A DNA stretch of 64,000 bases from Bacteroidia bacterium (GTDB lineage Bacteria; Bacteroidota; Bacteroidia; B-17B0; Aurantibacillaceae). This document shows positions 5,975-49,740 of this stretch, piece by piece; the first letter of the stretch is position 1, and each line of letters starts with the position of its first letter. The stretch lies in contig JAEUTO010000014.1 of NCBI GenBank assembly GCA_016787785.1, positions 62,001 through 126,000 on the forward strand. Direction: 5' to 3'. The notes below the pieces were generated by a model that was not told where the DNA came from, did not search any database, and saw only the letters and a list, made by a program, of their open reading frames with translations. The position numbers were made by a program, and so were the translations under genes.

Positions 5975-6622
5975 CTAACCTATTTTTATTTTTTTACCCA
6001 AATGTTTTGGTTTTGTGTTTAGAATGTAAAGGTCCAAAATGCATTTAGTTCGGGAGAAGAATTCCCTGAACTTTATTTTGGTACTTTGTTGTGTGGTTAC
6101 TTTAGTAGCGTTATATCCAAAGGCTTTTAAACCAATTTTATTTGCAATGTAAACTGCCCGCGCATTGTGAAACTCCTGCGAAATAACAATTACACTGTCT
6201 TGCCCAAAGATCTCTTTACACCTTACCATACTATCAAAAGTTCTTAAGCCGGCGTAATCTAAAACCATGCAGGAGTCGGGGATGCCAACTTTTAATAAAG
6301 CATCATGCATGTCTTTTGGTTCGTTGTATTCGTTTACCCGGTTATCGCCACTTAAAATTAAATAACTAACTTTTTTTGCATCGAATAATTTTTTAGCCGC
6401 TTGTATACGGTACGCAAAATATAAATTTTTAGTGCCATTTCTTAACAAACGCGAAGTGCCTAATACAATTCCCACTTTTGTTTTAGGTACAACTTTTACA
6501 GAATCAAATAATTGTGCCTTCGTTGCATTTGCAATGGTCATGTGGCATACAGAGCAGATAAGAATAATAGCTAACGATGCATAGAAGAGGATCTTAAATG
6601 ATTTTTTTAGTAAAAAGATCAT
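5975..6622 (-). CDS. SanA/YdcF family (DUF218) membrane-anchored protein
   Basis: The 215-residue product has one N-terminal membrane segment (about residues 8-30) and then a DUF218 domain: VGIVLGTSRLLRNG, AYRIQAAKKLF, YLILSGDN, DMHDALLKVGIPDS and VISQEFHNARAVYIA. E. coli SanA, a relative, affects the envelope barrier and vancomycin sensitivity; the reaction is not established. It is the last gene of a leftward cluster and starts 3 bases after the UbiA-like gene ends, so the two are translationally close. Confidence 0.85.
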   Translation of the reverse strand: MIFLLKKSFKILFYASLAIILICSVCHMTIANATKAQLFDSVKVVPKTKVGIVLGTSRLLRNGTKNLYFAYRIQAAKKLFDAKKVSYLILSGDNRVNEYNEPKDMHDALLKVGIPDSCMVLDYAGLRTFDSMVRCKEIFGQDSVIVISQEFHNARAVYIANKIGLKAFGYNATKVTTQQSTKIKFREFFSRTKCILDLYILNTKPKHLGKKIKIG

Positions 6623-6625
6623 GAT

Positions 6626-7492
6626 CTAGCTAAGTAATAAAAGATCGCTACAAACAAAAATGCAAAATACCACGCTTGCAACACCATTGGTAGTGCCAAA
6701 CGCCAGGTTAACTTTACTTAGATCGTTTGGTTTTACAATTACATGCTGGTAAATTAATAAACCAATAAAAGCAGCCATACCTATAACATATAACCAACCA
6801 AAATGGCCATAAAAGTAGATCCCTACAACTATTAATGCTGCTATTGCGTGAAAGACCTCTGATAGTCTTAAAGCGTTTTTGCGGCCAAGGTAAACAGGAA
6901 TGGATTTTAAATTTTCGCTTTTATCAAATTCATCATCTTGCAAAGCAAAAATAATGTCAAAACCACTAACCCAAAAAAACACCACACTACTTAATAATAC
7001 CGGTAACAAAGCAAATTCTTCGGTTAAGGCTATATATGCACCAATAGGAGCAAGAGAAAGGCCCACCCCTAAAATTAAATGACATAGGGCAGTAAATCGT
7101 TTGGTGTAACTATAACCTAATATTACCAATAAGGCTACAGGCGATAAATAGAAACATAATCTGTTTATTAAAAAGGAGCAGCCAACAAAACCAACACAGC
7201 AAATAACGGTAAATAATAAAGCAGATGTAGGTGAAATTTTCCCGGCAGGTATTTCGCGTACAACGGTTCTGGGGTTTTTACTATCAAACTTACGATCGAT
7301 ATAACGGTTAAAGGCCATAGCAGCACTGCGCGCAAATACCATACATAATATTACCAAAACAAATTTTTGCCAGGTAAAAAATGCCTTGTGCGAGCTAACC
7401 GCAAGCATAAAACCAATTAATGCAAAAGGCAATGCAAAAATAGTGTGACTGAATTTTATTAAAGAAAGATATTTATTTATCGTAGAGAACAT
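6626..7492 (-). CDS. UbiA-family polyprenyltransferase
   Basis: This is a 288-residue membrane protein with about nine hydrophobic helices and the two Asp-rich sites of UbiA enzymes: NRYIDRKFDSKNPRT near residue 63 and DIIFALQDDEFDKSENL near residue 175. UbiA proteins use magnesium to transfer a polyprenyl chain from its diphosphate to an aromatic ring. In Bacteroidota this branch is usually annotated as 4-hydroxybenzoate polyprenyltransferase-like and may serve menaquinone synthesis by the futalosine route (MqnP). Which route applies cannot be told here because no other quinone gene is present. Confidence 0.88.
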   Translation of the reverse strand: MFSTINKYLSLIKFSHTIFALPFALIGFMLAVSSHKAFFTWQKFVLVILCMVFARSAAMAFNRYIDRKFDSKNPRTVVREIPAGKISPTSALLFTVICCVGFVGCSFLINRLCFYLSPVALLVILGYSYTKRFTALCHLILGVGLSLAPIGAYIALTEEFALLPVLLSSVVFFWVSGFDIIFALQDDEFDKSENLKSIPVYLGRKNALRLSEVFHAIAALIVVGIYFYGHFGWLYVIGMAAFIGLLIYQHVIVKPNDLSKVNLAFGTTNGVASVVFCIFVCSDLLLLS

Positions 7493-7519
7493 TCGTATTT
7501 GATTCGTACTGATCAGTAG

Positions 7520-8941
7520 TTACTTTCCTCTGCCTTGTAACACAATTAAAACAGTGTGTACTAAAATTTTAAAATCCAATAGCAGACTCATATTTTCAAC
7601 ATATAAGATGTCAAATTTAAGTCGGTCTATCATTTGATCTACGTTTTCGGCATACCCAAATTTAACTTGTCCCCAACTGGTAATACCCGGGCGAATTTTT
7701 TGCAAGTGTTTGTAATGAGGCGCTTTTTCAACGATCTTATCAATATAAAATTGTCTTTCTGGACGTGGCCCAACAATACTCATATCACCAATTAAAACAT
7801 TTAAAAATTGTGGGATCTCATCCAAACGTACTTTTCTTAAGAACCGTCCTATTGGTGTAACACGCGGATCATCGGCGCTTGATAGAGCAGGCCCCATTTT
7901 TTCTGCATCCTGGTACATGGTGCGGAATTTAATAATGTAAAACGGTTTACCATGTATTCCAACACGTTCTTGTCTAAAGAACATTGGTCCTTTTGAGCCA
8001 AGTTTTACCAAGATGCCCAGAAGGAGGTATAACCAGCTAAATGCGATCAACACAAAAACGGAGATGATCACATCAATAAAACGTTTGACTGAAATTTGCC
8101 ACTCGGGAATTATTTGATTTTTTATTTCAATTAAAGGCGTGCCTAAAATCGTATTCATTTTTACATGCCCACTTAGTATATCGTACATATCGGGAATGAT
8201 CTTAATGATGATACCCATATCACTTAAATTGTTAACGATATTTTTTATGTATTCATGTTCCCAACTTTCGAGTGCAATAATTACTTCCTCAACTTTATAC
8301 TTTTCAATTATATCCTTAATATCTTCGTATTCGCCCAGGTGCGGCAATTCGTTCTTTAAAACATCAGAGTAACCGTTCTTTCCCTCTATGTGTACAAAAC
8401 CTACAAACGCATTGCCAATACCATACTTTAAGGCATTTATTTCTTTGAACATCTTAAGGGCCCGCTCGTTACTGCCAATTATTAACGTGTTAAAGCCAAA
8501 TTTTTTACTGTGAATTTTTCGATTGGTATACGACGATAAGAAGAAACGGCTCAGGGCCGTGAACCCAAAGTGCGCTGCAAAAAGCACAAAATATAATTTG
8601 TAATACAACTTATAAAAAGCAACATTATCATCTAACAACACCACAAAGAAGAGAACGGTTACCCCAACAATTGAGGTGCTTAGGATCTGTACGAACTCAT
8701 TGATCCTTGATTTTCTAAGAACGTTATTGTAGGAGCCATAGAGGTAATAAACCAGTACCCAAATAAGCGGCAAGATGATAACACTGATATAAAATTGCTT
8801 GTCGAAGATCTCTGCCGATAACGCACCGGTTTTAAGCGGATCAATTTGTGTTTTACGGTAAATATTAAATAATGTCCACGCCAGGCCCGCCGATAAAAAA
8901 TCGAGAAAGATGTAATAGAATGTGCGTAGGCGTAAACTCAT
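7520..8941 (-). CDS. Polyprenyl-phosphate sugar-1-phosphate transferase (WcaJ/WbaP-like)
   Basis: The 473-residue protein has four or five N-terminal membrane helices, a central nucleotide-binding-like domain (NTLIIGSNERALKMFKEI, about residue 150), a further helix, and a C-terminal bacterial sugar transferase domain from about residue 285. That domain shows PMFFRQERVG, FYIIKFRTM, RKVRLDEIPQFLNVL and GDMSIVGPRPE, all expected for the family. Such enzymes load the first sugar phosphate onto undecaprenyl phosphate to start exopolysaccharide or O-antigen synthesis. It abuts the lipoprotein gene with no gap. No other glycosyltransferases are near, so it may act as a stand-alone initiator. Confidence 0.92.
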   Translation of the reverse strand: MSLRLRTFYYIFLDFLSAGLAWTLFNIYRKTQIDPLKTGALSAEIFDKQFYISVIILPLIWVLVYYLYGSYNNVLRKSRINEFVQILSTSIVGVTVLFFVVLLDDNVAFYKLYYKLYFVLFAAHFGFTALSRFFLSSYTNRKIHSKKFGFNTLIIGSNERALKMFKEINALKYGIGNAFVGFVHIEGKNGYSDVLKNELPHLGEYEDIKDIIEKYKVEEVIIALESWEHEYIKNIVNNLSDMGIIIKIIPDMYDILSGHVKMNTILGTPLIEIKNQIIPEWQISVKRFIDVIISVFVLIAFSWLYLLLGILVKLGSKGPMFFRQERVGIHGKPFYIIKFRTMYQDAEKMGPALSSADDPRVTPIGRFLRKVRLDEIPQFLNVLIGDMSIVGPRPERQFYIDKIVEKAPHYKHLQKIRPGITSWGQVKFGYAENVDQMIDRLKFDILYVENMSLLLDFKILVHTVLIVLQGRGK

Positions 8942-9790
8942 TTATAAATAAACTACTTTAATATTATCGAGGAACATTTTTTGGTTTGGAATATCTGCGT
9001 TCTTCACCATTTTAAAATAAATTTTTTGTGCAGTTGCTGTTGGAGTTCTGTTAAGCGCATCTGCTAATTGAATATATATTTTGCTCCACGTTTCAGTTGG
9101 GCTAACAAAAAGGGTTGATTTGGCAGTTGTGCCCGAAATAACACCCACTTCAAAACGCTCATTACATTTGTAATTTATTTCAAGAAACACGTTGGCGGAT
9201 GCTAGCGGTAACGTGTGCGTAACAGAAGATTCCATCTGGGCTATGGCATTAGCAGACAATCCAGACATATCAATTAAAGCAGATTTACCCTCAAAAGATT
9301 CAGAAATTGGAGCAACCGACCAGGAAACGGCTGATCCAATTGAGTTAACAAGTGTGAAACCCGGTCCGTCAAAATCTTCCATCCATTCAAATTTTGTATT
9401 TGGGTTGTATTTAAAAGTTAAAGGTCTGTTAATTGTTTTCCCGCTTTCTACAAGCGTGTCAAGAGATATAAAATCGTAGAATATCCAGCTAATACGGGTA
9501 TCGCTAATACCGTTGTTCTTAATACCAGCAAGAATGTTGACCTTTACTTTTTCATTCTTGGTTATTATTGGCATTAAATTGCCGGTAGGATAGGCCCCCT
9601 GGAATTTCCCGTTAACATATAGCCAAAGATCTGTAATCTTATGACTACCAGAGCCTTGAGTGGTGCTAGTTGGAGCAACGGTAACAGCTTCGGGTTTAAT
9701 AAAGAACGCAGCTTCTGCAGCCACATATTTTTTACAGGAAGAGAGTAAAAACAGATTTATTAACAATACAAAAAATAAAAGTAACCTCAT
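8942..9790 (-). CDS. Lipoprotein of unknown function
   Basis: The 282-residue product has a lipoprotein signal with lipobox LLSSC (Cys19). The mature protein holds a segment with Gly/Ser linkers, then a likely beta-sandwich in the second half (WMEDFDGPGFTLVNSIGSAVSW onward) that resembles a carbohydrate-binding type jelly roll, inferred from pattern only. Its stop is directly followed by the start of the sugar transferase, and it lies downstream of the Gfo/Idh gene, so a role in the cell surface is likely but not shown. Confidence 0.65.
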   Translation of the reverse strand: MRLLLFFVLLINLFLLSSCKKYVAAEAAFFIKPEAVTVAPTSTTQGSGSHKITDLWLYVNGKFQGAYPTGNLMPIITKNEKVKVNILAGIKNNGISDTRISWIFYDFISLDTLVESGKTINRPLTFKYNPNTKFEWMEDFDGPGFTLVNSIGSAVSWSVAPISESFEGKSALIDMSGLSANAIAQMESSVTHTLPLASANVFLEINYKCNERFEVGVISGTTAKSTLFVSPTETWSKIYIQLADALNRTPTATAQKIYFKMVKNADIPNQKMFLDNIKVVYL

Positions 9791-47253: not shown

Positions 47254-48027
47254 CTACCAACCGGTAACTAATAAATTCCTTGCAGCCTTTTCGCTACACT
47301 TTTGATATGAAGAGTAGGTGAGGGCTGCCTTGCTTCTTACCTGTTCGTTAGTGCCGCTGTTTACGTAAACACTTAAGGCATTGTGTAGTGTGTAGGCTTC
47401 TGGACACATTAAACCGGTTGTCCAAACCACGGGGTTAGCTTTAGCGGCTTGTAAATGCGGTTTAAAATACGATCTACTGTAACAGGCTAAAATAATGCAG
47501 TCACGTATTTTGTTATCACTGCTTGCAAAAGATTCTGTTAAGTCAAAATCCATTAAGCCGTCATGACCAGTGTATGCAAGCATTGACGCATTGCTGTAAA
47601 GACCAATGGAAACATTATTTACTTGAATAGAATCTTTTAATTTGCCTGAACAGGCACATAAGTATTCTTTGGTGCATTGTTTAATGTATTTACCATCGTA
47701 AGCATCGGCCACTAAATAATAATTTTTGGTAACGTGTTTAAATACCAGGCGTTCTAATTTTATAGAATCTACTTTTACGGTTTTTAATAATTTCCATTCT
47801 GCACTTTTTTTAAAGAAACTGCGCACACCATAACCACAACCCCAGTACAAATTATTATTAAGATCTTGTCCATTACCAATTTTGGCAGGCACCGGCACAA
47901 TGCCCTGGTACTTGTTATCGCAAAGCGCCACAAAAACGTGAATGGTTTTAAAAGTGGTAACAGGTTTCTTCAAGTCAAAACCTAAAAAACAAAGTGGAAC
48001 TAAAATAAATAGCATTTTACTAAACAT
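47254..48027 (-). CDS. Exported protein with possible caspase-fold His/Cys dyad
   Basis: The 257-residue product has a short signal peptide. The mature part begins HVFVALCDNKYQGIVPVP, then NLYWGCGYGVRSFF. Later two segments look like the catalytic strands of clan CD (caspase/gingipain-like) peptidases: MLAYTGHDGLMDF with H155, and CIILACYSRSYF with C182. Between and after lie VVWTTGLMCPEAYTLHNAL. Clan CD enzymes place His after one hydrophobic strand (HG) and Cys after the next (AC), which fits. This is inference from motif spacing only; I cannot name the family. Confidence 0.65.
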   Translation of the reverse strand: MFSKMLFILVPLCFLGFDLKKPVTTFKTIHVFVALCDNKYQGIVPVPAKIGNGQDLNNNLYWGCGYGVRSFFKKSAEWKLLKTVKVDSIKLERLVFKHVTKNYYLVADAYDGKYIKQCTKEYLCACSGKLKDSIQVNNVSIGLYSNASMLAYTGHDGLMDFDLTESFASSDNKIRDCIILACYSRSYFKPHLQAAKANPVVWTTGLMCPEAYTLHNALSVYVNSGTNEQVRSKAALTYSSYQKCSEKAARNLLVTGW

Positions 48028-48029
48028 GT

Positions 48030-48356
48030 TTATTTACTTTTTATATAATTCGCAGGTGTAACACCTTTACCTGTTACTTCTGTCAATACATTATAACTAT
48101 AAACAAATTTTCGGTTACTAAAAAACGCATCGTAATAGTTGTTAAATAAAGTTACGTTAATTTTTGCACCCGCTTTAATTTTTTTCAAAACAATTTGTAC
48201 TTCGGGGTAACCAACGGGATAAACGGTTAAACCAAGTATTCGTTTATCATCTATCTTAATATGAGTCTTTTCAAAAGGAATTTTAAAGCTATTACGGTTT
48301 ATATCATTTTTGGTGGAAGAAATACTTTGTGCGCCTTCAATCTCAATAATATCTCC
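48030..48356 (-). pseudogene. In-frame continuation of the preceding gene beyond a TAG stop
   Basis: Directly after the TAG at 48357-48359 the same frame stays open for 108 codons to a TAA at 48030. It reads as normal protein (GDIIEIEGAQ, ILGLTVYPVGYPEVQIVL, KIKAGAKINVTLFNNYYDAF, TEVTGKGVTPANYIKSK). There is no start codon near its beginning. The simplest view is that a single change in a sense codon split a gene of about 348 residues. Readthrough or a sequencing error are alternatives. Confidence 0.7.
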
Positions 48357-49076
48357 CTATTCAGTATAAAAAGAAATAGTGATCTCATTGGTTAGATCAG
48401 TTTCTGTAAAATTAAATTTTGGTTCTATAAGTTGTTTATTGTTTTTTGTACTTAAATAAAGTGTGTCGTTTTTTTCAATACATGAACCTTCGTATGTAGA
48501 ATCTTTTTGGTCAGGACACCAGGTTTTATCATGCGTCAAAATATAACTAAAGGTGTTGTCTTCGTTTATTCGTAACAGGCCTTCTTTGCAGATAGCGCTT
48601 AGTTTATCACCTTCCGCATTTAAAGGCAAATAGGTGCCGATTAAATGTTCCGGGATCATATCATCTATAAACATTACTTCGCTATAATACAATCTGTAAC
48701 CGTAGTTACCTTCGAATAAAAGCAGGTCGTATTCAAATTTGCCACTGGTAATGTAGTTGATGTCTTTTTTCTCTTTTGGATGATCCATCCAGGTTCCACA
48801 AAAAGGATAGACGCGGGCCGGATAGTTAAACTCTTTATGCCTGTTATGAATATAACCATCTGCGGTTCCGGGTAAACTTCCTTGCGCAAAATTAAATAAG
48901 AAATTTTCAGTGATCATAACGGTTTCGTCCTTTTTTATAAAACCGTAATAATTGCCCCCAATTATTAACGAGTCGACGTTATATCCCGTTCTGTTATTTA
49001 TTTTTATTTGAAGGTTCTGTGCGCTTAAAGCAAGACCGGTAAAGATGATCGCGTAGAAATAAACTACTTTTTTCAT
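48357..49076 (-). CDS. Exported protein of unknown function, probably truncated by TAG
   Basis: The ATG at 49076 gives a signal peptide (VVYFYAIIFTGLALSAQ) and 239 residues; a 49229 start would add 51 unrelated residues. The body has no known fold: LIIGGNYYGFIKKDETVMI, then a lipocalin-like stretch (EHLIGTYLPLNAEGDKL, DNTFSYILTHD, DTLYLSTKNN). The protein ends at an in-frame TAG, and the same frame continues as apparent coding sequence to 48030, so this is likely the front part of a broken or recoded gene. TAG ends other genes here, so it is not generally read as sense. Confidence 0.65.
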   Translation of the reverse strand: MKKVVYFYAIIFTGLALSAQNLQIKINNRTGYNVDSLIIGGNYYGFIKKDETVMITENFLFNFAQGSLPGTADGYIHNRHKEFNYPARVYPFCGTWMDHPKEKKDINYITSGKFEYDLLLFEGNYGYRLYYSEVMFIDDMIPEHLIGTYLPLNAEGDKLSAICKEGLLRINEDNTFSYILTHDKTWCPDQKDSTYEGSCIEKNDTLYLSTKNNKQLIEPKFNFTETDLTNEITISFYTE

Positions 49077-49182
49077 ATAACTAAACTTTCCTAAAGCTAA
49101 TTGTAATCCTGATTTCTTAAAGCGCAACTCAACAGCTGTTGAGTTTACTTTTATAAGTGGTAAGTTTTTAGTTCCTAAATCC

Positions 49183-49740
49183 TTACAGGACGCGCTTTTG
49201 CTTTGCACTTTCTGAAATGGTTTTCTCAAGCCTCGAGAGTTGTGTTTTTTCCTGTTTGGCGGTCATTATCCAATGTATCATTACTTTTTGATACGAAGGC
49301 GCTTGTGTTGTAAAAAATTCCCAGGCTTTTTTATTGGTCTTAAATTTTTTCTCGTACGTTGGCGACAATTTTTTCGTCTTGTTTTCGTGAGAATAGATCT
49401 TAGACTTGTTTTCTGCAAGTAATTTAAATGCGGCCACTCCTTCGGGTTTCATTAACCCTTTTTTTGTAAGCTCTTCTATTTTCTTAACATTTATAGCACT
49501 CCAAATACTTTTTGGTTTCCTTGGTGTAAAGCGAATGCAATAACTTTCCTCGTTTATGCTTCTACGAACTCCATCTATCCAACCAAAACACAAGGCTTCA
49601 TCTACAGACTGCGGCCAACTGATACTTGGTTTGCCGGAACTAACTTTATAAAAGCCAACTAATAGTTCTTTTTCTTTTTTATGGTTCTTGTTTAACCATT
49701 TTCTAAAGTCTGATGGTTTTGGAAAGAAAGTCGGTTTCAT
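49183..49740 (-). CDS. YdeI/OmpD-associated family protein
   Basis: The 185-residue cytoplasmic protein has the YdeI pattern: FPKPSDFRKWLNKNHKKEKELLVGFYK, then WPQSVDEALCFGWIDGVRR, YCIRFTPRKPKSIWSAIN and a C-terminal helical domain. Relatives are labelled bacteriocin-protection or OmpD-associated proteins, but the molecular role is not settled. It has no operon partner of clear function. Confidence 0.85.
   Translation of the reverse strand: MKPTFFPKPSDFRKWLNKNHKKEKELLVGFYKVSSGKPSISWPQSVDEALCFGWIDGVRRSINEESYCIRFTPRKPKSIWSAINVKKIEELTKKGLMKPEGVAAFKLLAENKSKIYSHENKTKKLSPTYEKKFKTNKKAWEFFTTQAPSYQKVMIHWIMTAKQEKTQLSRLEKTISESAKQKRVL

Follow-up and report, generated by a model that had tools for sequence, protein, structure and literature searches.

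Organization of the locus

The window, the whole 64,000 nucleotide stretch of Bacteroidia contig that was analyzed, carries an interrupted gene on its minus strand. Translation of 48030-49076 from the ATG at 49076 gives 239 codons, a TAG, 108 further codons in the same frame, and a TAA. The upstream part (48360-49076) encodes 239 residues. They open with a hydrophobic start that resembles a signal peptide by eye, followed by an N-terminal region at about residues 20-135 and, after it, a middle region. The gene product is apparently exported, judging by eye from the appearance of its N-terminus, MKKVVYFYAIIFTGLALSAQ. The in-frame TAG (48357-48359, minus strand) is codon 240 and lies two-thirds along the gene. 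Beyond it, 108 codons (48033-48356, minus strand) represent the former C-terminus, and the TAA (48030-48032, minus strand) is the original gene end. A 290-codon ORF listed at 48357-49229 is the same frame with an upstream TTG start and nothing more; all four full-length relatives described below begin with an ATG that aligns with the one at 49076.

A sequence-only reading of this DNA had proposed one gene split by a single TAG, with 108 codons of normal-looking protein continuing to a TAA and no start codon at the junction. The translation agrees with the continuation. Neither ATG nor GTG occurs among the 108 in-frame codons, and TTG is found only at codons 57 and 91, though rarer start codons such as ATT do occur in frame there. 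From base composition alone, a stop-free run of 108 codons has a chance probability of about 4e-4. The downstream part indeed looks like normal protein, with a codon usage score of 0.238 per codon in the gene frame versus 0.028 or less in the remaining five frames, and with 53-88% identity to the C-termini of the relatives.

An intact gene of 257 amino acids (47254-48027, minus strand) starts 2 bases past the TAA, and its product is 92% identical to that of genome G020. The family of this neighbor was found in 20/87 genomes (own included) and has no Pfam or NCBIfam match. It contains GHDG and ACY motifs, which we take to resemble those of clan CD (caspase-like) proteases. Its structure model, made from three rows, had a mean pLDDT of 38.9, too low for a fold search. 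The upstream neighbor (49183-49740, minus strand) encodes a YdeI/OmpD-associated (OmdA, PF13376) domain.

Uninterrupted relatives

The read-through protein was searched against 150 genomes, its own included, and generated matches in 13/150 (own included). Among the 149 other genomes, 4 contained an uninterrupted full-length relative, G020 with 82% identity, G018 with 62%, G034 with 54%, and G025 with 45%. The sequence-only reading had suggested a search for an intact homologue of about 348 residues; those found have 347, 330, 346 and 351 residues. A profile search of 87 genomes of the bacterial family (own included, 86 others) returned the same four full-length relatives. By that search the full-length gene is patchy, being present in 4/39 other genomes of the same genus. 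No second copy of the gene was found in its own genome, where a DNA search gave only short matches elsewhere. In G020 and G018 the OmdA gene likewise lies upstream of the relative, and both neighbors are in the same order, while G034 and G025 have other neighbors.

At the TAG position all four relatives carry a sense codon (Thr in G020, G018, and G025, Asn in G034), and in the alignment their own ends almost coincide with the TAA. The TAG was seen in one genome. Each of the relatives' codons is two or three bases away from TAG, so the stop has no one-step origin from any codon seen. When the downstream 108 residues alone were searched against 87 genomes (own included), their matches in the four relatives were only the ends of longer open frames (352, 335, 353 and 358 codons), and in 0/4 full-length relatives was this part a separate gene. 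A weak fifth match, in G079 (E 7.2e-4, within a 514-codon open frame), was rejected as a relative. Homologues that end at the TAG position with the downstream part absent or separate, the outcome that would have spoken against a split gene, were not seen among the four full-length relatives.

Conservation of the C-terminal third is about that of the middle region and exceeds that of the N-terminal region. Identities for the C-terminal third, middle region, and N-terminal region are 88%, 87% and 74% to G020, 86%, 77% and 30% to G018, 71%, 67% and 28% to G034, and 53%, 57% and 24% to G025. Because intact relatives exist, carry a sense codon where the TAG stands, and do not encode the downstream part separately, the two pieces are one gene split by a nonsense codon in this sequence, as first proposed.

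Protein family and structure

Searches of the split protein against Pfam and NCBIfam found nothing above the curated cut-offs and at best matches far below them. With the split protein nothing was found among PDB sequences, and with the profile the PDB gave two matches with E values of 0.37 and 0.84. Seven of the other 8 matched genomes contain the N-terminal region alone, in open frames of 127-160 codons, and G033 has the middle and C-terminal regions without the N-terminal region, twice (L006-L014 for both groups). As read from these sequences, the family is modular and lacks a Pfam match. The intact G020 relative was modeled (as L015) with three other rows, two of them missing a few N-terminal residues, which yielded a mean pLDDT of 40. 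This model is too low in confidence for a fold search and places the TAG site, with low confidence, between two strands. The cut at the TAG may therefore run through a fold, as far as so weak a model indicates.

Constraint beyond the stop codon

The part beyond the TAG has a dN/dS of 0.128 (95% bootstrap 0.058-0.256) against G020 and 0.155 (bootstrap 0.065-0.304) against G018. For the same part, G020 and G018, both of which are intact, give 0.126 (bootstrap 0.034-0.333). Relaxed constraint beyond the stop was thus not seen, as the dN/dS level is the same as that between intact relatives. In the downstream part dS to the nearest relative is about 0.5. Neutral simulation with an equal amount of change (5000 runs) generated a mean of 28.1 amino acid changes and a minimum of 18, compared with 13 observed. 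Since there are fewer amino acid changes than expected under neutrality, the bulk of the downstream divergence probably dates from a time when the region was still translated.

Two other features of the sequence were less telling. Within 24 bases at the TAG there are 9 differences to G020, a number reached by 4.2% of the windows of that size in the gene and so not exceptional. The absence of further stops downstream is 29% likely under neutrality and is uninformative. A downstream part that is still constrained means that the stop is recent, or an error, or leaky, and these data do not separate the three. Unrelaxed constraint is what one expects if the stop is recent, which limits any claim of a pseudogene to a recent event. 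As a point of method, low dN/dS past a stop seen in one genome only does not count as evidence of readthrough.

Decoding of TAG in this genome

TAG serves as a normal stop elsewhere in the window, as the sequence-only reading had stated. It ends 11/55 ORFs taken as likely genes there, including 6626-7492, and 35/209 ATG frames of at least 250 residues in 424 kb of contig, the window included. The prfA (RF1) model had a match over its cut-off; a second match to the same model, below the cut-off, is probably RF2. A CTA anticodon was found in 0 of the 50 tRNA matches listed (48 named by ARAGORN, 2 read by eye), a list that is not exhaustive, as 150/341 first-look candidates were scored and ARAGORN named a few further tRNAs beside the 50. 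Of the two matches given no full anticodon by ARAGORN, one has the loop CTTTTAG, read by eye as containing the anticodon TTT and no CTA. The other has a degenerate loop, by eye also without CTA. RNA folding of 106 bases around and after the TAG gave a z score of +0.64, and 148/200 shuffles fold at least as well. As far as tested, a changed genetic code at TAG is not supported.

A separate observation concerns the large tRNA cluster of contig C13, in which a tRNA-like sequence (L066, 6018-6087) has an irregular anticodon loop and no identity from ARAGORN.

Survey for other split genes

A heuristic survey covered 424 kb of the contig for frames of at least 100 residues with an in-frame, coding-like follower of at least 50 codons; this scheme misses shorter followers and followers whose codon usage is poor. 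It yielded 25 frame pairs. In 23/25 an ATG lies among the first 22 codons of the follower, and these pairs were taken as adjacent genes, not individually checked. Only the locus at 48030-49076 has a follower that lacks both ATG and GTG. The second-ranked pair (L101 position 7079, TAA, 226 codons with codon 93 as the first ATG) resembles thrS-infC. By eye, thrS- and infC-like genes occupy 6402-9031 on the minus strand of L101 in one frame with a TAA between them. infC starts with ATT, and because of this non-ATG start the pair was dropped as a case of a split gene.

Origin of the stop codon

The sequence-only reading had left three causes open, namely a fresh nonsense mutation, a sequencing error, and programmed readthrough. 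The last found no support, and the first two are not separated by these data. We consider it probable that a nonsense mutation has recently struck a patchily distributed accessory gene of this Bacteroidota lineage. The gene, whose apparently exported product would run to about 348 residues when intact, would have acquired a TAG at codon 240, where ribosomes would stop, presumably with RF1. The product, if stable, would have 239 residues; its signal-like start, N-terminal region, and middle region would be retained, and the conserved C-terminal third would be missing. With neither ATG nor GTG after the TAG, the 108 downstream codons would go untranslated. The stop would be young relative to the split from the nearest relative, hence the downstream part would still look like a gene. 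We infer that the base at the TAG is real in the organism and that function is lost in the truncated product. Since the gene is patchy in the genus, such a loss is plausibly tolerated.

That the TAG was miscalled in sequencing or assembly, with the gene intact in the living cell, is unlikely but deserves more weight than the remaining alternatives. PMC11017572 reports many pseudogenes with internal stops to be assembly artefacts and takes internal stops as a mark of base miscalls. The constraint downstream is indistinguishable from that between intact relatives, and the locus is isolated in the contig survey, as a single error would be. Against an error, the same frame is open on either side of the TAG, and a single insertion or deletion therefore does not account for it. 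A single miscall would also need a true codon unlike those in the four relatives, and one case in 424 kb is no sign of a stop-ridden assembly, although the survey sees only some kinds of split. Neither the case against an error nor that against a leaky stop is decisive.

Leaky or programmed readthrough, in which mostly the short form and some full-length protein would be made through the TAG, is very unlikely. It would account for a downstream dN/dS of 0.13, and PMC7918605 makes the case that many bacterial in-frame stops persist with low dN/dS and may be read through. The TAG is, however, present in 0/4 relatives. RF1 is present, the tRNA list, incomplete as it is, holds no CTA anticodon, the RNA at the TAG folds no better than its shuffles, and the survey turned up no other gene split by TAG whose continuation lacks both ATG and GTG. 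The specific version in which a main 239-residue form is accompanied by a little full-length protein, so that low dN/dS reflects use and not the youth of the stop, we regard as very improbable too. Least credible of all, and extremely unlikely, is a naturally shorter protein whose stop is ancestral or selected and past which lies either a gene of its own or an untranslated remnant. The stand-alone N-terminal frames of 127-160 codons elsewhere would fit this idea, as they show that domain content changes in the family. Yet none of the four full-length relatives ends here or encodes the downstream part separately, this part has no ATG or GTG start, and the G020 model, with its mean pLDDT of 40, puts the site between two strands and not at a clear domain boundary.

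The favored nonsense mutation does not differ in kind from known bacterial pseudogenes of this type, which likewise have one in-frame stop, intact relatives, and a patchy distribution in the genus. Here the neighbors are the same in two relatives, and the downstream part is still gene-like and so far free of decay. Conserved in-frame stops suspected of readthrough resemble this case in having low dN/dS beyond the stop, here a TAG. The large-scale study of such stops focused on stops in orthologues of two or more species and argued for frequent readthrough from in-frame stops in the orthologues of several species together with low dN/dS (PMC7918605). The TAG described here occurs in one genome and in 0/4 relatives, and without sharing among orthologues it lacks what that argument, as given there, relies on. 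Stop codon reassignment and pyrrolysine-type amber decoding are alike in placing a TAG inside an open frame. They differ from this single case, in which no CTA tRNA was found among those listed, RF1 is present, and TAG ends many genes. For annotation, both pieces belong in a single interrupted gene rather than in an entry for a short protein with nothing after it; beyond annotation the importance of the stop is little.

Mosaic pattern of the gene

DNA identity between G018 and G020 was followed along the region that corresponds to 48030-49740 (compared with L002 and L003). It reaches 85-93% in most of the upstream OmdA gene and drops to 49-74% for the greater part of the first two-thirds of the split gene. 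From a point about 40 bases ahead of the TAG position it is 89-95% up to the gene end, and most of the gene for the 257-residue neighbor shows 85-95%. On this pattern of identities the gene seems to be a mosaic, with a 5' part that was swapped or evolves much faster. A mosaic gene without a Pfam or NCBIfam match is possibly worth a separate look.
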